A stretch of 23,312 nt of DNA from a virus, in IMG/VR virus record IMGVR_UViG_3300034355_000630, positions 1-23,312 of that record; one strand, 5' to 3'. Positions 1 to 8,654 of this stretch are shown here, one piece after another. The position numbers and the translations under genes were made by a program. The notes beneath the pieces are model-generated. The model was given only the letters and a program-made list of their open reading frames with translations, did no database searches and had not been told where the DNA came from. The first letter of the stretch is position 1; each line of letters begins with the position of its first letter.

Positions 1-340
1 TTGATAGGTTTCCCATTGTTGCATTATAACCTGCTTTATTACCAATAAATGTTGAAAGTTGAACAAGTGGTGTATTGTAACCTGCTTGTTCTCCCAATGC
101 AATATTATCAATAGGACCTATTGGTCCAGCTAAAGGATCTGTAGAATACAATGACGTACCATCAGTGGCAATTGATGATGCTGACCCAGCTAATAAATCT
201 TCAACTGTTATTACTCCTGCTAAGTAACCGTCATCCCTGCGGTCATCTTTTAATCCTACTGGTATTACTGATTTAGTTGGATCAACTGAGGTTACTTGAC
301 GTTTACCTTTTACCCAAGAAATAATATTTAAAATATCCAT
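1..340 (-). CDS. Phage structural or fibre-like protein, partial (C-terminus outside window)
   Basis: The frame is open from ATG at 340 to the window edge, giving 113 codons with no stop. The start reads MDILNIISWVKGKRQ, followed by a short linker. From about residue 80 there are two repeats of the type G-x-x-AGYN (ALGEQAGYN and IGNKAGYN). This resembles the glycine and asparagine-rich repeats of phage fibre or tail proteins and trimeric adhesins with a head of short beta coils. It is the last gene of the leftward block, downstream of two hairpins at 401-425 and 488-517, so it probably has its own promoter. The structural role is an inference from the repeats and the position; the family cannot be named from 113 residues. 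Confidence 0.6.
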   Translation of the reverse strand, partial: MDILNIISWVKGKRQVTSVDPTKSVIPVGLKDDRRDDGYLAGVITVEDLLAGSASSIATDGTSLYSTDPLAGPIGPIDNIALGEQAGYNTPLVQLSTFIGNKAGYNATMGNLS

Positions 341-392
341 TGCTTTATTTTTTAATTAATACATATAATATAATATACACAATATTAATATA

Positions 393-425
393 AAAAACAA
401 AATCCCAGAATAATAATCTGGGATT
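393..425 (-). terminator. Intrinsic terminator, minus strand
   Basis: A perfect 9-bp stem (401-409 with 417-425, arm AATCCCAGA) has a 7-base loop. On the minus strand it is followed by a T-rich tract (complement of 391-400). It sits about 60 bases upstream of the structural gene starting at 340, so it ends a short leader transcript rather than a coding gene. The same arrangement recurs at 3070-3093. Confidence 0.75.
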
Positions 426-471
426 CCCTTACCTATCATGTTAATTTAATACGTTTAAATATTAGAGTACA

Positions 472-479
472 CAAATATA
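472..479 (-). promoter_or_regulatory. TATATTTG element, Bacteroides -7-like box
   Basis: The plus strand reads CAAATATA, which is TATATTTG on the minus strand and fits the Bacteroides -7 consensus TAnnTTTG. It follows directly after the T-run of the terminator at 481-517. No TTTG -33 box is visible at the usual 19-21 base spacing, so this may be a phage-specific or partial promoter. Other copies lie at 2911, 3055 and 3150. Confidence 0.4.
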
Positions 480-480
480 T

Positions 481-517
481 AAAAAAAATTCCCAATAAGA
501 ATAAACTTACCGGGAAT
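481..517 (-). terminator. Terminator after the lipoprotein gene, minus strand
   Basis: ATTCCC (488-493) pairs with GGGAAT (512-517). The stem continues inward through ATAAG (495-499) and CTTAC (506-510), with a G-U pair in the minus-strand RNA. Eight A residues at 481-488 give a U-run on the minus-strand transcript. It lies 61 bases past the stop of the lipoprotein gene and ends that operon. Confidence 0.7.
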
Positions 518-577
518 CTTTTTTCAGCGAGAAGACTGAGAAGAAAAGGAGGTGCTAAAGTATATATAATATTTTAA

Positions 578-808
578 TTATACATACCTTCTACTTCTCT
601 TTTTTCTAACTTTTTTTATTTTAGGTAAACCTTTTCTTGCAGATTGTCTATGCTTTATCATTGCATTCTTCATGCGCGCATCCTCACTTCTCACAATTCT
701 TTCTCTATTTCCTAGATCAGCATTGTGAGTCCTACCTTGATTATAGTTAGGACCTACAGAGTGAGGGGCACATGAATACAACAAAAACAAAAACAAAAAA
801 TATCTCAT
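578..808 (-). CDS. Small basic lipoprotein, 76 aa
   Basis: The protein starts MRYFLFLFLLYSCAP: one positive residue, a hydrophobic stretch (residues 3-11), then a lipobox with L10-Y11-S12 before Cys13. This predicts export and lipid attachment at Cys13. The mature part of about 63 residues is very basic, with a K/R-rich end (KKVRKKRSRR). It lacks the acidic residues after the cysteine that mark surface export in Bacteroidetes, so it probably stays on the periplasmic side. It overlaps the DUF3310 gene by ATGA at 805-808 and is the last gene of the thyA operon. The function is unknown; an outer spanin or a superinfection-exclusion lipoprotein are possibilities only. Confidence 0.7.
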   Translation of the reverse strand: MRYFLFLFLLYSCAPHSVGPNYNQGRTHNADLGNRERIVRSEDARMKNAMIKHRQSARKGLPKIKKVRKKRSRRYV

Positions 809-1245
809 TTCTTTAACTCAGCAATTCTTCTTTTTAAATACACTTCTGCTTTTTCTAAGTCTTCTAATTCTTTTGACTTATCTTTTTTACCAGCTCTTGC
901 AACATACTTAATAACATTACCTAAGTAAAAGTCTTTATCTAACCCCCATGCTTCAAGAACATTAAATACTTCATATGTACTGTTAGCTCCTCCATAATGA
1001 GAAGGTCTTAGTGGAGAATGTTTAGCAGTACAATCTGGTGCTGTAACTGCTTTAGGTTTTGTACCAGCAAATGGATCATTACCTACATAAGGACTAGACT
1101 CAGTTCTTCTAAGATAATCCTTATACATTTCTTGACTTTTATTAGCAGCAATCTCAGCCATAATTTTCAAACTCTTATTATATGTATTAGATGACTCAGG
1201 TTTTCCTGCCATCCTTTTATATTCATCACAAACTAATTCGGACAT
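805..1245 (-). CDS. DUF3310 protein, 146 aa
   Basis: The C-terminal half carries the DUF3310 signature: HYGG, then YEVFNVLEAWGLD, GNVIKYVARAGKK, DLEKAEVYLKRR. The family is common in phages and is often labelled nucleotide-kinase-like, though its activity is not established. The N-terminal 70 residues are not recognised. An earlier in-frame GTG at 1275 and ATG at 1269 would overlap the upstream gene. I chose ATG at 1245 because it follows the upstream stop as TAA-G-ATG, matching the tight coupling elsewhere. It lies with thymidylate synthase, which fits a nucleotide-metabolism role. Confidence 0.8.
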   Translation of the reverse strand: MSELVCDEYKRMAGKPESSNTYNKSLKIMAEIAANKSQEMYKDYLRRTESSPYVGNDPFAGTKPKAVTAPDCTAKHSPLRPSHYGGANSTYEVFNVLEAWGLDKDFYLGNVIKYVARAGKKDKSKELEDLEKAEVYLKRRIAELKK

Positions 1246-1246
1246 C

Positions 1247-1537
1247 TTACCAAACAATTGCAATGTCATACTCACTCAACATAAGCTTGATGCTTTCTTC
1301 TACCTCAATTACTTCTGCATTTTTAATTGCATTAACTGAGATATAAACTTGGTCACCTGCTGCTACAGTTTTAACTTCTTCTCCAACGGCATACACTTCT
1401 AAACGTGTCCATTGTTTCATTGCTTCTTGCTCAATGTGTGCTTTATCTGCTTCACTTAATTGGATAGCTGATTCTTTCATTACTGGTTGGTTAACCAATA
1501 CTCTACGTCCTTTTAGACTCTTAAATGCTGTACTCAT
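1247..1537 (-). CDS. GroES-like co-chaperonin, 96 aa
   Basis: The length is that of GroES (about 97 aa), and landmarks occur in GroES order: LKGRRVLV near residue 8, a polar central insert where GroES has its mobile loop, EVYAVGEEV (residues 47-55), AAGDQVYI (59-66), and the terminal strand KLMLSEYDIAIV (84-95). GroES forms the lid of the GroEL folding chamber; phage versions such as T4 gp31 replace the host lid to fold capsid protein. The start overlaps the thyA stop as ATGA (1534-1537), so the two are translationally coupled. Sequence identity with GroES is low by eye, so the call rests on pattern and length. Confidence 0.7.
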   Translation of the reverse strand: MSTAFKSLKGRRVLVNQPVMKESAIQLSEADKAHIEQEAMKQWTRLEVYAVGEEVKTVAAGDQVYISVNAIKNAEVIEVEESIKLMLSEYDIAIVW

Positions 1538-2499
1538 GGTTTTTGTTTTTTATTATAACTTAACATTTCTACTTTCAATTTTGGATAACTATTATACCCC
1601 ACCAAATTAAAGTCCTGTAAAGATAATGAATTAATTACACTATTAAAGTTTAAACGTGATGGATTTTTTAAAAAAAGTTTAAACTTAGATTTATCAATTT
1701 CCAGTTTACTCTCTCCATATAATTCAGGATCTCTAAACATTAACTCTTTAGCTACGTCAACTTGATTATCATATATATGTACATTCTTTAACTCTCCTAT
1801 TACTGCGTTGCATTTATATCCTGTTAAGATTTCCAGTACTTGTGCTAGTGCAGCATAGAACATTATATTAACAGGAGTACCTAAGAAAAAATCTGTAGAC
1901 CTTTGACTCCATACTAATGTAAACTTATAAGTATTATCTATTGGTTGGCACACTACCTGGAAAGAATAATGACAAGGAGGTAAACACATATTAGGTAAAT
2001 CAGCAGGGTTCCAAGAGTTAACAATTAATGATGTTGACATAGGTGTTTTAATCATGGAAGAAACAAGGTTAAATAACTGATCAACTCCATTGGAGTTTCT
2101 CCACTGATGAGAATAGATCTTACCCATATCATAAATGTGCGCGGGTAATTCTTCAATCTTTTTATCATCATTTTTCCAATCCTCATATAATGCTTTTGCT
2201 GTTGTTTCATTGTACTTATTAAATCTGGCCCAATCTTTATCCCAGAATCTAACACCACTTTTCCACAAATCTCTTATATCTGTAGAACCAGACATAAAAA
2301 ATAATAACTCAGCTATTGCTCCTTTGAAATAAATCTCTTTAGTGGTTAATGCTGGAAACCCAACACTAGGTCTGCAATACAAATTGATCATTGCTATCTC
2401 AATTCTTTCTACTCCTTTTCTATTTGGGTCTTCATACTTATATCCCCCATAATAAATCTCCTCTAATACTTTCTTGTACTGCGTATCAAATACTGCCAT
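1534..2499 (-). CDS. thyA: Thymidylate synthase (ThyA type), 321 aa
   Basis: Makes dTMP from dUMP with methylene-tetrahydrofolate, supplying thymidine for phage DNA. Catalytic Cys176 and neighbouring His177 lie in LPPCHYSFQ. The dUMP-binding loop is SQRSTDFFLGTPVNI (Arg200, Ser201, Asp203, Asn211), and HIYDNQ (241-246) supplies the His/Tyr pair that contacts the sugar. The N-terminal phosphate-binding Arg is probably in NRKG (26-29). At 321 aa it is longer than E. coli ThyA (264 aa), with extra sequence around residues 95-120 and 260-300. It is the first gene of a leftward operon and has ATG at 2499. Confidence 0.96.
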   Translation of the reverse strand: MAVFDTQYKKVLEEIYYGGYKYEDPNRKGVERIEIAMINLYCRPSVGFPALTTKEIYFKGAIAELLFFMSGSTDIRDLWKSGVRFWDKDWARFNKYNETTAKALYEDWKNDDKKIEELPAHIYDMGKIYSHQWRNSNGVDQLFNLVSSMIKTPMSTSLIVNSWNPADLPNMCLPPCHYSFQVVCQPIDNTYKFTLVWSQRSTDFFLGTPVNIMFYAALAQVLEILTGYKCNAVIGELKNVHIYDNQVDVAKELMFRDPELYGESKLEIDKSKFKLFLKNPSRLNFNSVINSLSLQDFNLVGYNSYPKLKVEMLSYNKKQKP

Positions 2500-2524
2500 A
2501 TATCCTTTTTATAAATTACTTCTC

Positions 2525-2559
2525 AAAAAATAAGCTCTAAGTTTTTACCTCAGAGCTTA
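2525..2559 (-). terminator. Hairpin terminator upstream of thyA, minus strand
   Basis: TAAGCTCT (2531-2538) pairs perfectly with AGAGCTTA (2552-2559). A run of six A at 2525-2530 gives U's on the minus transcript. It lies between the small conserved gene and thyA, so it separates their transcripts or attenuates thyA. Confidence 0.6.
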
Positions 2560-2589
2560 AGTCTTATCAATCAAATAAAAATAAATGTA

Positions 2590-2610
2590 CCGTAAACATC
2601 TATATTACGG
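2590..2610 (-). terminator. Hairpin just past the 2628-2891 gene
   Basis: CCGTAA (2590-2595) pairs with TTACGG (2605-2610) across a 9-base loop, 18 bases past the stop codon. The minus strand beyond it is T-rich (complement of 2572-2585). This is a weaker terminator than its neighbours. Confidence 0.45.
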
Positions 2611-2627
2611 ATGTAAAGATAAGTATT

Positions 2628-2891
2628 TTATACTAATTCTTTATACATTTTTTCAAATATTTTTTTAGACATTACAGAGTACTCCCCGTTCCAATCCTGT
2701 ATAAGATAGTCCCCCTCATCAATTCTAAATTCTCTACCCCCGGTGTTAATCCATAAAGCCCAAAACTTTTTCTGCCTATAATCAACCATACCTTCAAAGT
2801 CTTCTCTACTAGCAATTTCTAATGCCATCTTCTCCGTACCATCATACTGCATTGCCTCAATAGTCTTTGGTCTCTCTGTATATAATTTCAT
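2628..2891 (-). CDS. Conserved small phage protein, 87 aa
   Basis: It starts MKLYTERPKTIEAMQYDG and ends with the pattern FRIDEGDYLIQDWNGEYSVM, then IFEKMYKEL. This build (EA-x-QYDG near the N-terminus, then GDYLI and GEY, then a final F-x-x-x-Y) recurs in many phages under hypothetical names, so it is a real family, but I know no activity. An in-frame GTG at 2897 was passed over in favour of ATG at 2891. A TATATTTG element lies about 20 bases upstream (2911-2918), suggesting a short leader. Confidence 0.7.
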   Translation of the reverse strand: MKLYTERPKTIEAMQYDGTEKMALEIASREDFEGMVDYRQKKFWALWINTGGREFRIDEGDYLIQDWNGEYSVMSKKIFEKMYKELV

Positions 2892-2910
2892 GATCACAAT
2901 TTTAATAACA

Positions 2911-2918
2911 CAAATATA
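2911..2918 (-). promoter_or_regulatory. TATATTTG element before the 2628-2891 gene
   Basis: TATATTTG on the minus strand, sitting directly after the U-run of the terminator at 2920-2963 and 20 bases upstream of the ATG at 2891. It fits TAnnTTTG, with no clear -33 partner. Confidence 0.45.
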
Positions 2919-2919
2919 T

Positions 2920-2963
2920 AAAAAACCCAGGAAGTAATTCTTGATCAGAGAAACTTTCCTGGG
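2920..2963 (-). terminator. Hairpin terminator, minus strand
   Basis: CCCAGGAA (2926-2933) pairs with TTCCTGGG (2956-2963) across a 22-base loop. Six A at 2920-2925 give U's on the minus strand. With the TATATTTG at 3055 upstream it would bound a non-coding transcript of roughly 120 bases. Confidence 0.6.
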
Positions 2964-3054
2964 GGTAGTAAAGTTATAGACTAATCCTTTCCTTTACTGA
3001 GAAGTCCAAACCTGGGACGCTGATCTTACGGTAAGCGTGTCTGGCACATATATA

Positions 3055-3062
3055 CAAATATA
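3055..3062 (-). promoter_or_regulatory. TATATTTG element
   Basis: TATATTTG on the minus strand, directly after the T-rich tail of the terminator at 3063-3093. No gene begins within 150 bases on this strand, so it would drive a short untranslated RNA ending at 2920. Confidence 0.4.
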
Positions 3063-3093
3063 AAACAAAATCCCCAGACTGGCATCTGAGGAT
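3063..3093 (-). terminator. Hairpin terminator, minus strand
   Basis: ATCCCCAGA (3070-3078) pairs with TCTGAGGAT (3085-3093). The single mismatch is a G-U pair only in the minus-strand RNA, which supports that orientation. The minus strand continues TTTTGTTTTA. Arms, the upstream TAGGTAAG and the tail all match the module at 393-440. Confidence 0.65.
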
Positions 3094-3149
3094 CTTCTTA
3101 CCTAACTTTAAGTTAACGAGTTTTTCATGTGTGAAAGTATGAACTTGTG

Positions 3150-3157
3150 CAAATATA
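3150..3157 (-). promoter_or_regulatory. TATATTTG element
   Basis: TATATTTG on the minus strand about 60 bases upstream of the terminator at 3070-3093. It would yield a leader of about 70-80 bases. No -33 TTTG is seen. Confidence 0.35.
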
Positions 3158-3338
3158 ATAACATTGGTACAATATCAGATAACAATTTCCGGGAATTTTC
3201 ACCCCGTGCGTAATCTCTTAATGTACAAATGCCATTGGGTATTTGGGCCTGATGTATGTAAGAGAGTGTGGTGGGCCCTCAATAAAAAACCCCCCGGCCC
3301 TTCAGGCCTAGCTGGTACCCCCTATGCTTAGAATAAAG

Positions 3339-3360
3339 ATCCAACTCATGACTAGTATTA
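3339..3360 (+). promoter_or_regulatory. Early promoter-like motif, copy 1
   Basis: ATCCAACTC, then ATG, then ACTAGTATTA, 35 bases before the ATG at 3374. The same arrangement recurs at 3604, 3860, 4131, 4790 and 5268, mostly right after a terminator, which makes a promoter the simplest reading. It is not a sigma-70 or Bacteroides TAnnTTTG promoter. Confidence 0.6.
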
Positions 3361-3373
3361 AATGTAAATAATT

Positions 3374-3571
3374 ATGAGAACAGACATAAAAATTGTTCTA
3401 TTGTTGGTGGATCCATCACTAGAACAACCTACTGCTGACAACAGCAGAGTAAAAAGTTTGAGCCAAGCTCAAGCATACATCAACTCATGCATAACAAAGC
3501 AAGAGTTGATAAAATACAAGATTACCCCAATTGGAGTTAATCTTATATTTGAGATAATCAAGACTAAGTAA
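3374..3571 (+). CDS. Unknown small early protein, 65 aa
   Basis: No family recognised. A hydrophobic start (IKIVLLLVD, residues 5-13) looks like a buried beta strand rather than a membrane segment. Then a polar, helix-prone middle follows and an end with IKTK. It is the first gene of the rightward block and stands alone: the motif at 3339 precedes it and a terminator whose stem begins at the stop codon follows. First position next to the divergent hub suggests very early expression. Confidence 0.65.
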   Translation: MRTDIKIVLLLVDPSLEQPTADNSRVKSLSQAQAYINSCITKQELIKYKITPIGVNLIFEIIKTK

Positions 3572-3598
3572 AGGGTATATTAACCCTTTACTTTTTTT
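3569..3598 (+). terminator. Terminator overlapping the stop codon
   Basis: TAAAGGGT (3569-3576) pairs perfectly with ACCCTTTA (3583-3590) across a 6-base loop, followed by a run of seven T at 3592-3598. The first three bases of the stem are the TAA stop of the 3374 gene. Confidence 0.85.
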
Positions 3599-3603
3599 CT
3601 CTT

Positions 3604-3625
3604 ATCCAACTCTCTACTCTTATTA
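3604..3625 (+). promoter_or_regulatory. Early promoter-like motif, copy 2
   Basis: ATCCAACTC followed by ACTCTTATTA, six bases past the T-run of the previous terminator and 33 bases before the ATG at 3637. Confidence 0.6.
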
Positions 3626-3636
3626 AAACATATACT

Positions 3637-3840
3637 ATGAAATACTCATTTACTTTTTTGTTTGTGCTATTCACTAGCATAATACTAGCTGGATTCGCAT
3701 ATGAATGCTGGCTAGAGAATTCACCCACTTTATGTGGTGTGATGACATGTCTTTCATTTATATTCTTCATGGGTGCTATTGCTGCTCCTGATAATGAAAA
3801 ATACAGCAAAGACTATTATAATAAACATAAGGGATTATAA
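3637..3840 (+). CDS. Small membrane protein, 67 aa
   Basis: Two hydrophobic segments are visible: residues 4-23 (FTFLFVLFTSIILAGFA) and 32-50 (LCGVMTCLSFIFFMGAIAA), with a polar lysine-rich tail KYSKDYYNKHKGL. It probably sits in the host inner membrane as a hairpin. The function is unknown; an early membrane protein in a phage could act in exclusion or host takeover, but nothing in the sequence decides. The last three codons and the stop form part of the terminator hairpin. Confidence 0.7.
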   Translation: MKYSFTFLFVLFTSIILAGFAYECWLENSPTLCGVMTCLSFIFFMGAIAAPDNEKYSKDYYNKHKGL

Positions 3841-3854
3841 CCCTTATGTTTTTT
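3824..3854 (+). terminator. Terminator overlapping the end of the membrane protein gene
   Basis: AACATAAGGG (3824-3833) pairs perfectly with CCCTTATGTT (3841-3850). The 7-base loop contains the TAA stop, and a run of T follows. The 5' arm encodes the last residues of the protein. Confidence 0.85.
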
Positions 3855-3859
3855 AAGTC

Positions 3860-3880
3860 ATCCAACTCATGACTATTATT
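3860..3880 (+). promoter_or_regulatory. Early promoter-like motif, copy 3
   Basis: ATCCAACTC, ATG, ACTATTATT, six bases after the preceding T-run. It contains an in-frame ATG (3869), which is part of the motif as in copy 1 and so is unlikely to be the translation start. Confidence 0.6.
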
Positions 3881-3904
3881 GATATTAATTTAAATTTAAA
3901 TACT

Positions 3905-4102
3905 ATGGAAATAAAAATTGACAAAAGTGTAGTTACACAAGAGCTATTAAAGTTTAATATGTTAGATAAACATACTGTAAATGCTATAATAATAATGCTC
4001 AATAATAGAATAAACTTATCTGATAGTGCTTATACTACAATGAGTAACACAGATTGGTTAATACATTTTAGAAATGAACTTGTAATACATAATCAAGAGT
4101 AA
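3905..4102 (+). CDS. Unknown small early protein, 65 aa
   Basis: It starts MEIKIDKSVVTQELL and is mixed alpha/beta by composition, with no recognised domain and no membrane segment. The in-frame ATG at 3869 would add 12 residues, but those bases are the shared promoter-like motif and the AT-rich leader, so ATG at 3905 is preferred. It is a stand-alone unit between two terminators. Confidence 0.6.
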   Translation: MEIKIDKSVVTQELLKFNMLDKHTVNAIIIMLNNRINLSDSAYTTMSNTDWLIHFRNELVIHNQE

Positions 4103-4103
4103 T

Positions 4104-4129
4104 AAGAGTGGGTATTAAACCCATTCTTT
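4104..4129 (+). terminator. Terminator after the 3905-4102 gene
   Basis: AAGAGTGGGT (4104-4113) pairs with ACCCATTCTT (4119-4128), one G-U pair, 5-base loop. The 5' arm is identical to that of the terminator at 4740, pointing to duplication of whole cassettes. Confidence 0.8.
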
Positions 4130-4130
4130 A

Positions 4131-4150
4131 ATCCAACTCAAGACTATTAA
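4131..4150 (+). promoter_or_regulatory. Early promoter-like motif, copy 4
   Basis: ATCCAACTC, AAG, ACTATTAA directly after the terminator and 39 bases before the ATG at 4170. The following AT-rich leader (4151-4174) is repeated at 4408-4431 before the next gene. Confidence 0.6.
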
Positions 4151-4169
4151 TAATTTAAACTTATATATT

Positions 4170-4349
4170 ATGAATACAGAAACTGTACACAAAATAATAG
4201 ATCACATCAATAAACAAATTGATATGATTAATGGTTATGCACTTAATAACCAAGGTGGTTTAACTGAAGCAGAAGCTATCAGTGCTATTGCAGGTAGAAA
4301 AACTCTTAAACAATTAAAAGAGTATTTGCAAGAACATATTGAAAAATAA
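4170..4349 (+). CDS. Unknown small early protein, 59 aa
   Basis: ATG at 4170 to TAA at 4347-4349. It starts MNTETVHKIIDHINKQID and ends KQLKEYLQEHIEK; strongly helical, probably a helical hairpin or coiled coil, no membrane segment. No family recognised. It lies in its own cassette: motif at 4131, shared AT-rich leader, terminator at 4352. Confidence 0.65.
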   Translation: MNTETVHKIIDHINKQIDMINGYALNNQGGLTEAEAISAIAGRKTLKQLKEYLQEHIEK

Positions 4350-4351
4350 CA

Positions 4352-4378
4352 AGAGAGGGCTTATGCTCTCTCTCTTTA
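4352..4378 (+). terminator. Terminator after the 59-aa gene
   Basis: AGAGAGGGC (4352-4360) pairs with GCTCTCTCT (4365-4373), one G-U pair, 4-base loop, then CTTT. It starts three bases after the stop codon. Confidence 0.75.
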
Positions 4379-4426
4379 TTAAACCATTTTATAACTAATA
4401 ATAATATTAATTTAAACTTATATATT

Positions 4427-4738
4427 ATGAAAAAAGTATTTACAGCAGATAAACAATCTTATGGATCAGGGTTCTTTCAAGTGTGCAATTCTCTTGAAGA
4501 ATTAAAAAGAGCTATCATTGATCATCATTGTTATATGTTTGATGATGAAGATTCTGAACGTGTATACTCAGATGATTTGTTTAAAGAAGCTTGTGCAAAG
4601 GGACAGTATACCCCTTTTGAGGTTGACCTTCACCCTGAAGAAGAAATTGTATTTGATGGGTATGATGGGCAATCTTGGTTCAAGATTGAGAAGATAAATA
4701 AAGGCGTTTTATCCCGTAGTAGAAGAATTGAAGAATAA
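4427..4738 (+). CDS. Unknown acidic early protein, 103 aa
   Basis: It starts MKKVFTADKQSYGSGFFQVC, with an acidic middle (DDEDSERVYSDD) and PEEEIVFDGYDGQSWFKIEKI near the end, then a basic tip. No known domain seen. It keeps the AT-rich leader shared with the previous gene, including the bases around the ATG, but the ATCCAACTC box is degenerate here (AACCATTTTATAACTAATA from 4382). It may be expressed more weakly or by another promoter. A strong terminator follows. Confidence 0.7.
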   Translation: MKKVFTADKQSYGSGFFQVCNSLEELKRAIIDHHCYMFDDEDSERVYSDDLFKEACAKGQYTPFEVDLHPEEEIVFDGYDGQSWFKIEKINKGVLSRSRRIEE

Positions 4739-4739
4739 C

Positions 4740-4769
4740 AAGAGTGGGTATTATGCCCATTCTTTTTTT
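4740..4769 (+). terminator. Terminator after the 103-aa gene
   Basis: AAGAGTGGG (4740-4748) pairs with CCCATTCTT (4756-4764), one G-U pair, followed by a run of seven T ending at 4769. A second T-run preceded by a small GC hairpin lies at 4773-4789. Confidence 0.85.
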
Positions 4770-4789
4770 CTTGCTTCGCAGCTTTTTTT

Positions 4790-4807
4790 ATCCAACTCAC
4801 AACTGAT
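4790..4807 (+). promoter_or_regulatory. Early promoter-like motif, copy 5
   Basis: ATCCAACTC, ACA, ACTGATA right after a T-run. It lies 56 bases before the ATG at 4846, the longest leader of the set. Confidence 0.55.
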
Positions 4808-4845
4808 ATGGATATAAATTGTTTAACTAATAAAAAATTAAAGTT

Positions 4846-5166
4846 ATGGAAACTAGTAAAGACCAAATTGTAATGTGCAACATCAAAGGAATTGATGCTG
4901 AGATTAATGTAAACACTAACGGTAAAAGATACCGTAAATGCACATTAACAGCTTCTTCAGGAAAGAATGCTAGAGGTGTGATTTATGAAAGTGTTTGGGA
5001 TAAAGTATCTCAAGGAGATGATGTAAATGTTGCACTTTCAGTAATGGAAGACGGGAAAACTATTATCCCTAGTGTAATTGGTTTACCACTTGCAAGTCTT
5101 ACATTTGAAGACTTTGGAATTTCAGCACCTTCTACAGAGATTATCAAAGAAGACTTTGAGTTCTAA
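4846..5166 (+). CDS. OB-fold, SSB-like protein, 106 aa
   Basis: The pattern is strand-rich: IVMCNIKGIDAEINV, GKRYRKCTLTASSG, ARGVIYESVWDKV, GDDVNVALSVMEDGKTIIPSVIG. This suits a five-strand OB fold as in single-stranded DNA-binding proteins. It ends in an acidic tail with a final aromatic (KEDFEF), like the SSB C-terminal tip that recruits partner enzymes. ssDNA coating during replication or recombination is therefore the likely role. Length and tail fit a small phage SSB; no catalytic motif is expected. It is the last member of the cassette array, before a very stable terminator. Confidence 0.5.
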   Translation: METSKDQIVMCNIKGIDAEINVNTNGKRYRKCTLTASSGKNARGVIYESVWDKVSQGDDVNVALSVMEDGKTIIPSVIGLPLASLTFEDFGISAPSTEIIKEDFEF

Positions 5167-5205
5167 TAATATAACCTCTACCTTAACAGGTAGGGGTTTA
5201 TTATT
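5165..5205 (+). terminator. Long terminator after the SSB-like gene
   Basis: AACCTCTACC (5173-5182) pairs with GGTAGGGGTT (5189-5198), one G-U pair, 6-base loop. The stem extends outward by seven pairs (AATAATA 5165-5171 with TATTATT 5199-5205) around a bulged T. TTATTTTAAA follows. This is the most stable hairpin in the array. Confidence 0.85.
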
Positions 5206-5267
5206 TTAAAGTTGCTGAGTAAGCATAGTTAACTGTTTACTATTTCTTGACTGCGTCAGCTTCTTCT

Positions 5268-5285
5268 ATCCAACTCTTAACTGAT
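5268..5285 (+). promoter_or_regulatory. Early promoter-like motif, copy 6, with no gene behind it
   Basis: ATCCAACTC, TTA, ACTGATT. Unlike the other copies no open frame follows for more than 500 bases, so its product would be an RNA or a very long leader for the gene at 5801. Confidence 0.5.
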
Positions 5286-5664
5286 TGGGGTTGATTGTGC
5301 AGAATAACACTGGTCAACTGGTACACAGGTAATTGGTTTATTATATATATGGTCTAACACTAATTCTAATTTATCAAGTTAAATAAGATTAGTCAGCATC
5401 ATTAAGATAATGTGGTCTAACAGTTCTAGATATAGTACAATAAGAATACTTTGTATCCCACCTGTGGGCAAAGTAGACTCACATCCTGATAATCAAGCAG
5501 TTATATTTTAGGCATAATTAAAAATTGTACGTGAAAAGGTGTGAGAAGATGGTGGACAGAAGAACTATCACCTAATCTTATGCTTCAAGTAACCCACTTA
5601 AATCACTGATACAGCTATACATACAATTAAATATATAGCTAAACAAGTATAAGTACATTAATCT

Positions 5665-5755
5665 ATCATACTATTAGTCTTAGTACTAGTATTATCTATA
5701 GTAATAGTATTAACAGTATTATTACTTGTATTAGTACTATATCAAATAAGAGTAT
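5665..5755. repeat. AT-rich inverted-repeat block
   Basis: Dense in TAGTA and ATTA words. TAGTACTA is its own reverse complement and occurs on both flanks of an inner pair AGTAATA and TATTACT, so the block can fold into one long interrupted hairpin or be easily unwound. It lies just upstream of the alpha-CTD-like gene. An origin of replication is possible but not shown. Confidence 0.45.
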
Positions 5756-5800
5756 TATAGTATCCGGTTTATTTGCAAATTCAACTAAAAAATATAAACA

Positions 5801-6013
5801 ATGGAAGACTTAACAGTAAGATCAAAAACAGTGCTTAACCTATTAGGCATTGAAACAGTAGAACAATTAGTATCTGCTGAGTTACCTGAAATAGGTACAG
5901 TGATTAAAAGAGATGTGTTCTTTGGTAGTATTACCTACTCAAGAAAAGTAGATGAAGAACTTAAACAAGTTATTGAAAAAGTTAAACTAGATGTAGGTAA
6001 TATCTTATTCTAG
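5801..6013 (+). CDS. Stand-alone RNA polymerase alpha-CTD-like protein, 70 aa
   Basis: The N-terminal half, EDLTVRSKTVLNLLGIETVEQLVS (with gaps of none), parallels the bacterial alpha C-terminal domain segment that reads ELTVRSANCL and continues to DLV. The Arg that contacts DNA in E. coli alpha (Arg265) aligns with Arg7; the Asn268 position is Thr10. The second helix-hairpin-helix is less clear (LPEIGTVIKRD, then a helix 47-62). A free alpha-CTD-sized module could bind DNA or sigma and redirect transcription. It lies between two gene-free structured stretches, with its own AT-rich leader. The call rests on motif similarity by eye. Confidence 0.55.
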   Translation: MEDLTVRSKTVLNLLGIETVEQLVSAELPEIGTVIKRDVFFGSITYSRKVDEELKQVIEKVKLDVGNILF

Positions 6014-6444
6014 TTTATTATTACTCTCATCCAAGCAGGATTATTTGACATGAGATCCATGTAACAGTTGATGCCTGTAGTCAACTATAAAATAGGCAGG
6101 TAAGGATTGCAACCTTGTGAGAGTACACGGAAAGTGAATAAGTAGCTTTCAAGCTTTGTGGATTACAGCAAAGTATAGTAGGTGGAATTCCTACTTTAAT
6201 GTACCATTCCTGATTCCCAAGGTCAGGCAGTTGTAATAACTACAAAACTTTATAGAGTATAAGCGGGTAGACAAATCTATGCTACGCAATTAGCTACCAC
6301 CTAAACTGCAGTATATTGCAAGATGCAGGTAATGGATACTGAGGTAAGCTCTCAGTGATTTGTCCTATAAAGATGTTATTATAACTGAGTACAGAGGGGT
6401 TATTAACTGAAAAATATAAACTGAAAATTAAAACTGAAAAGATT
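6014..6444 (+). ncRNA. Hairpin-rich gene-free stretch, candidate structured RNA
   Basis: No open frame in 431 bases, but perfect local stems are frequent: AGTTGA (6066-6071) with TCAACT (6081-6086); TGCCT (6072-6076) with AGGCA (6094-6098), which would make a pseudoknot with the first; AAGG and CCTT (6102-6116); CTTTG and CAAAG (6154-6173); AGTAGG and CCTACT (6177-6195); CTGCA and TGCAG (6306-6328); ACTGAG and CTCAGT (6338-6356). Several have 7-base loops. The word GAGTACA occurs at 6121 and near 6390, and again in the gap at 8051-8654. No known RNA family is recognised; no tRNA fits. Confidence 0.4.
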
Positions 6445-8248: not shown

Positions 8249-8368
8249 GGTTAGGTAGCTCAACTGGCTAGAGTAAGTGGTGAGTGTTGAGAGGGTAGGG
8301 AGTCATGACCTGAGAGTATCAAGTTAAATCTTGCCGCTAGGTTGCAGGTTCGAGTCCTGTTCTAACCA
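8249..8368 (+). tRNA. tRNA gene with a 46-base insertion in the anticodon loop
   Basis: All arms but the anticodon loop are canonical. Acceptor GGTTAGG (8249-8255) pairs with TCTAACC (8361-8367), one G-U. D-arm GCTC (8258-8261) and GAGT (8271-8274) with GG in the loop. Anticodon stem AGTGG (8276-8280) with CCGCT (8334-8338), one G-U. Variable loop AGGTT. T-arm GCAGG (8344-8348), loop TTCGAGT, CCTGT (8356-8360). Discriminator A at 8368; CCA not encoded. The anticodon loop is 53 bases (8281-8333) instead of 7, so the anticodon cannot be read. An intron is the simplest reading, but no cut placed within this stretch yields a loop with U at position 33, so a pseudogene or tRNA-like RNA remains possible. 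Confidence 0.7.
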
Positions 8369-8565: not shown

Positions 8566-8640
8566 TCTCCTGTAGCTCAGTTGGTAGAGCATCTGATCCA
8601 AAAAATCTGGAGGTCACTGGTTCAAGTCCAGTCAGGAGAT
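8566..8640 (+). tRNA. tRNA gene with an abnormal anticodon loop, identity unresolved
   Basis: Acceptor TCTCCTG (8566-8572) pairs perfectly with CAGGAGA (8633-8639); D-arm GCTC and GAGC around AGTTGGTA; variable loop AGGTC; T-arm ACTGG (8616-8620), TTCAAGT, CCAGT. With canonical spacing the anticodon stem is TCTGA (8592-8596) and TCTGG (8606-8610), with one T-T mismatch, leaving a 9-base loop TCCAAAAAA. Shifting by one gives CTGAT and ATCTG, a 7-base loop with C at position 33 and anticodon AAA. CCA (Trp) is the other candidate. CCA end not encoded; discriminator would be T. Confidence 0.75.
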
Positions 8641-8654
8641 CAAAGTGTATTAAA

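Follow-up and report, generated by a model that had tools for sequence, protein, structure and literature searches.

Candidate early promoters of a freshwater crAss-like phage change in type together with the virion RNA polymerase

This study shows that the type of a motif repeated along an array of one-gene cassettes co-varies with the virion RNA polymerase of the phage in two independent comparisons, one between arrays of types A and B and the other between the phages G020 and G024. We consider it likely that the motif is an early promoter read by the virion polymerase and that the two switch as matched polymerase-promoter pairs, although the promoter function, the binding protein and the start position are all inferred. 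The window analysed is an entire IMG/VR virus record of 23,312 bases, and its relatives were retrieved via the last cassette gene of the array and via thymidylate synthase. One of them, G001 (121,494 bases), has TS, an SF2 helicase and the array in common with the window; its terminase (TerL) matches Crassvirales records, and its 3307-aa protein, which carries a DFDVD motif, is matched by crAss RNA polymerases, including phi14:2 gp66. The window phage is a freshwater crAss-like phage that meets the criterion of Crassvirales membership, with the terminase evidence coming from G001, so that the crAss-like identity proposed in the initial annotation holds. The giant DxDxD polymerase is encoded by relatives, the window record being a fragment without the polymerase gene.

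The motif array and its surroundings

The motif ATCCAACTC is found exactly at the first position of each of six copies (Table 1), all on the plus strand, and its longer form ATCCAACTCnnnACT has six exact matches on the plus strand of the window, all of them intergenic. A scan of the window gives no match to ATCCAACTCnnnACT on the minus strand and no extra match when one mismatch is allowed, a search for which shuffling gives a mean of 0.12 and a maximum of 2 by chance. Derived from 23 copies in four lineages, the type A consensus begins with a T-run and ATYCARCTY; after a gap of three bases come ACT and a half rich in A and T. An integron-like attC reading of ATCCAAC was rejected, since in drifted copies the sequence is ATTCAGC and a partner repeat was not seen.

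Table 1. Features of the array region (positions in the window)
Feature	Position	Strand	Remarks
Host-type TAnnTTTG sites (2911, 3055, 3150)	2911-3157	-	three sites, facing leftward genes
Motif copy 1, type A (ATCCAACTCATGACT)	3339-3353	+	before gene 3374-3571
Cassette gene 1	3374-3571	+	65 aa, function not assigned; homologue under type A motif in G006, L152 and G016
Terminator hairpin and T-run	3566-3593	+	before copy 2
Motif copy 2, type A	3604-3618	+	before gene 3637-3840
Cassette gene 2	3637-3840	+	67 aa, hydrophobic; has homologues behind motifs of types A and B
Terminator-like hairpin and T-run	3819-3855	+	before copy 3
Motif copy 3, type A	3860-3874	+	before gene 3905-4102; ATG at 3869 within
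Cassette gene 3	3905-4102	+	65 aa, function not assigned
Terminator-like hairpin and T-run	4104-4128	+	before copy 4
Motif copy 4, type A	4131-4145	+	before gene 4170-4349
Cassette gene 4	4170-4349	+	59 aa; G001 homologue 92% identical
Terminator hairpin	4352-4373	+	before type B site
Type B motif ACCATTTTATAACT	4383-4396	+	before gene 4427-4738; only off-type site of the array
Cassette gene under type B motif	4427-4738	+	103 aa
Terminator hairpin and T-run	4740-4764	+	upstream of copy 5
Mini-hairpin TTGC-TTC-GCAG	4771-4781		before copy 5; bottom-strand loop C(GAA)G
Motif copy 5, type A	4790-4804	+	before gene 4846-5166
Last cassette gene	4846-5166	+	106 aa; found in type A arrays only
Terminator hairpin	5173-5198	+	after last cassette gene
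Mini-hairpin TTGAC-TGC-GTCAG	5247-5259		before copy 6; bottom-strand loop C(GCA)G
Motif copy 6, type A	5268-5282	+	before non-coding stretch
Conserved non-coding stretch	5283-5800	+	after copy 6

Most of what the initial annotation had read from the sequence alone is confirmed. The six copies it listed all hold, every one being exact, and so does its ACTn(n)TATTA-like sequence after the motif, but this 3' half is looser in copies 5 and 6. Its claim that five copies lie 33-56 bases before a gene also holds, the offsets from motif to start codon being 35, 33, 45, 39 and 56 bases for copies 1-5, as does its claim that the ATG at 3869 belongs to the motif, the start of that gene being more likely at 3905. 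A hairpin and T-run, said to directly precede copies 2-5, were confirmed for copies 2-4; at copy 5 the terminator lies upstream and is followed by a second mini-hairpin and T-run. Not noticed in the initial annotation were the seventh site at 4383-4396, the mini-hairpins that precede copies 5 and 6, and the conserved stretch without genes behind copy 6. It had also called for a motif search over relatives, and in the long relatives, searched on both strands, the motif is confined to the array rather than scattered, with none found outside it. When the sequence collection was scanned with the short motif, mostly chance matches were returned, and the only cluster was in L012, the same contig as G001.

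The same layout of terminator, motif, AT-rich leader and one small gene is kept in relatives, where the array lies at the point at which two gene blocks diverge; in G001 it is located exactly where the leftward and rightward blocks part. Most internal copies have a stem of at least 6 pairs within 65 bases upstream, compared with 3-9% of random positions, while the first copies of arrays are mostly without an upstream stem. The cassette content is partly common between lineages, with gains and losses. The only homologue found for the gene under the type B motif (76%) sits in the array of L180/L181, which is of type B. An OB/SSB-like fold is weakly predicted for the last cassette gene; a proposed homology of this gene to phi14:2 g113 was not supported.

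The initial annotation had further stated that the motif is not the Bacteroides TAnnTTTG promoter, and this holds: no TAnnTTTG sites are present in the plus-strand intergenic spaces of the array, which rules out the Bacteroidetes TAnnTTTG element (at -7) as the identity of the motif. On the opposite strand such host-type sites do occur, at the divergence point, and the leftward promoters keep them whether the array of the phage is of type A or type B.

Phages with arrays of types A, B and C have the 3' part of the non-coding stretch after copy 6 in common, including blocks such as CAAAGTAGACT and AAATATATAGCTAAA, and the stretch has no Rfam match. Some further observations were made around it. 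A 70-aa gene (5801-6013) that resembles the C-terminal domain of RNA polymerase alpha (PF03118, E 0.006, below the curated cut-off) comes first after the stretch, as it does in several relatives. A second gene-free stretch of about 430 bases (6014-6440) lies among small early genes, and part of it is conserved in relatives (116 bases at 97%). An Rfam tRNA spanning 120 bases, with an insertion of about 45, is found at 8249-8368 without an ARAGORN call, and next to it, at 8566-8641, is a tRNA-Phe (anticodon AAA). Within its early region, phi14:2 has a tmRNA-like sequence (L146:4030-4500), starting GGGGTCGACTGG and ending GGTTCGAATCCCCCCGACTCCA, that is not annotated so in the record.

Mini-hairpins with a TNC loop closed by C-G, which read C(GNA)G on the bottom strand, accompany 11 of the 23 type A copies. 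B, D and E arrays, too, have such hairpins in front of motif copies; away from the motif they are seldom found in genomes of types A and B. The mini-hairpin was rejected as the core promoter, since its spacing to the motif varies from 7 to 15 bases and about half of the type A copies lack it, and the predicted hairpin energies do not tell a DNA role from an RNA role.

Motif types and the virion RNA polymerase

Sequence comparison of the arrays reveals at least five motif types (A-E), nearly uniform within each array and with the same layout, the cores in relatives being ACCATTTTATAACT for type B, CTAACCCTTAGnTTAAA for type C, AATCTTTARTAA for type D and TACTTCTTTnTACT for type E. The more distant G025 was left out, its evidence being limited to two suggestive copies at the end of a contig. 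Of the 89 motif-led genes found in A, B and C arrays, 88 agree in type with the array they belong to. The exception is the site at 4383 in the window, and it is possible, as this type B cassette suggests, that single cassettes also move between phages. One gene that is 97% identical between G001 and G007 lies behind a type A core in the former and a type B core in the latter with similar leaders, and a second gene pair with differing cores is 89% identical. Whole-array replacement can be located in two relatives. In L156, identity to the window is 99.1% over 1-3329; the array that follows is of type B, and the homology breaks 10 bases before copy 1. L155 matches the window at 99.3% up to 3047 and at 91% over 3053 to 3302, where the homology breaks, 37 bases short of copy 1; its array is of type C, and homology to the window returns at 5451.

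In long relatives the type of the motif follows the crAss-like virion RNA polymerase, whose gene lies tens of kilobases from the array. Polymerase identity is 88% within a type (B/B), but 51-59% between A and B and 31% between D and E, while portal, terminase and capsid are 90-99% identical across the compared phages of differing type. For A versus B, a pairwise set gives 53-59% and a second alignment, of linked genomes, 51-59%. A 1106-aa protein encoded as a neighbour follows the same pattern: the polymerase/neighbour identities are 84/88% within A1, 81/85% within A2 and 83-100/85-100% within B, 68-71/64-66% between A1 and A2, and 53-59/50-54% between A and B. Genes adjacent to these in G001 (A) and G007 (B) remain similar (p338 96%, p223 97%, DNA polymerase 92%). 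The polymerase tree groups the phages by motif type with support 1.0, whereas the tree of adjacent genes joins G001 with G007, also with support 1.0. In the second comparison, G020 (D) and G024 (E) are 97% identical in MCP, 90% in portal, 93% in TerL and 92% in DNA polymerase, but only 31% in the virion polymerase and 42% in the partner protein (L251-L256, L277-L282).

The linkage evidence rests on six relatives with array and polymerase on one contig, namely G001 (A1), G016 (A2), G007 and G009 (B), G020 (D) and G024 (E), and includes two independent switches. G017 and G018 are tied to a motif type by sample only, the contig of G015 is without an array, and the type C array, for which no polymerase is known, is outside the comparison. 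Because array and polymerase lie tens of kilobases apart, linkage alone does not account for their co-variation.

The motif as an early promoter and its rivals

The motif, its layout, its types, the breakpoints and the co-variation are shown, and the best explanation built on them is as follows. The array would be an early region in which each small gene, plus one non-coding stretch, forms its own transcription unit, made up of a promoter, an AT-rich leader, one gene and a terminator; the upstream core of the promoter would be specific to the type and its downstream half AT-rich. At infection the virion-packaged polymerase would recognise the core and start transcription close downstream, probably assisted in core recognition by the protein of about 1100 aa encoded beside it. 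The upstream core would set polymerase specificity, and this specificity and the array-wide promoter sequence would have switched jointly at least twice (A/B and D/E). In phi14:2 the virion polymerase drives rifampicin-resistant early transcription (PMC10136315). The phage-polymerase early promoter proposed in the initial annotation is supported to this extent, but transcription starts and the binding protein have not been shown.

Two other explanations appear unlikely. The motif could be a promoter for host RNA polymerase, recognised via a host-specific sigma, with promoter type and virion polymerase both changing with the host. A host change could indeed shift both together, and no transcription data exclude it. 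Against this stand the absence of TAnnTTTG from the plus-strand spaces of the array, the retention of leftward TAnnTTTG sites in A and B phages, and the difference in motif type between phages that are 99% identical beside the array. Similarly doubtful is a binding site for an activator or sigma-like factor encoded in the array that directs some polymerase. The last cassette gene differs between types and is therefore a possible alternative specificity factor; it is exchanged with the array, and its type A version is the one weakly predicted to be OB/SSB-like. However, a factor made from the array cannot launch its own first transcription unless it is packaged, and the unlinked polymerase co-varies too. 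That the motif works at the RNA level, as a translational or antitermination leader element, fits its fixed placement before start codons and directly after terminators but is very improbable, because the last copy in type A arrays has no gene behind it, only the non-coding stretch, so that the motif is not simply a translation signal, and because this reading gives no ready reason for whole-array type switches that track the polymerase.

An early promoter read by the virion polymerase remains our preferred reading. It yields candidate promoters of five types and candidate cognate polymerases for four, and makes the sequence specificity of the crAss-like polymerase fold directly testable, with near-isogenic natural swaps available and the stray mismatched promoter at 4383 as an internal control. 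It also suggests co-selection of early-gene arrays and polymerases, which would be replaced in pairs.

Comparison with known systems

A close likeness is to early transcription by the crAss-like virion polymerase itself (phi14:2 gp66 and the early genes of crAss001), given the same phage order, the same large DxDxD polymerase in relatives and early genes in a separate strand-biased block at a divergence point. The difference is that an exact 9-mer scan of phi14:2 and crAss001 recovers no array like this one, while arrays of types A, B and D were recovered by it as positive controls. No promoter for a crAss-like virion polymerase was found in the literature searched; the phi14:2 polymerase paper was not covered, and a report there is not excluded.

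The virion polymerase of N4 (vRNAP) also uses few early promoters in one region, and N4 promoters require the loop bases C(GNA)G on the template strand (PMC4496689), a signature that the bottom-strand loop of the mini-hairpin bears at the 11 of 23 type A copies that have one. However, the present hairpin is found at only about half of the type A copies with variable spacing, so that a fixed distance is not kept; the polymerase is of the crAss kind with a fold unrelated to the T7-like N4 vRNAP; and it is the sequence core that varies by type in the present arrays, not the hairpin. A bolder reading, which we regard only as possible, is that promoters of the crAss-like virion polymerase are bipartite and assisted by a C(GNA)G DNA mini-hairpin extruded on the template strand, N4-like despite the unrelated polymerases, with sequence specificity exchanged between phages as a matched polymerase-array pair.

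Promoter plus stem-loop units between genes, with shuffling, are the mark of the PeSL cassettes of T4 (cited in PMC4503421), and the array shares this: a promoter and stem-loop are repeated between small genes, and cassettes are gained, lost and exchanged. T4 PeSLs, however, use host-type early promoters, whereas the core seen here does not resemble those of the host and changes across the whole array along with the polymerase. In the T7 group (T7, T3 and SP6), polymerases and promoters form specificity families that change together, and there too an upstream core sets specificity while the downstream half is more shared. The present system differs from that group in its unrelated polymerase fold and in that its types vary among phages that are 90-99% identical in their structural genes.
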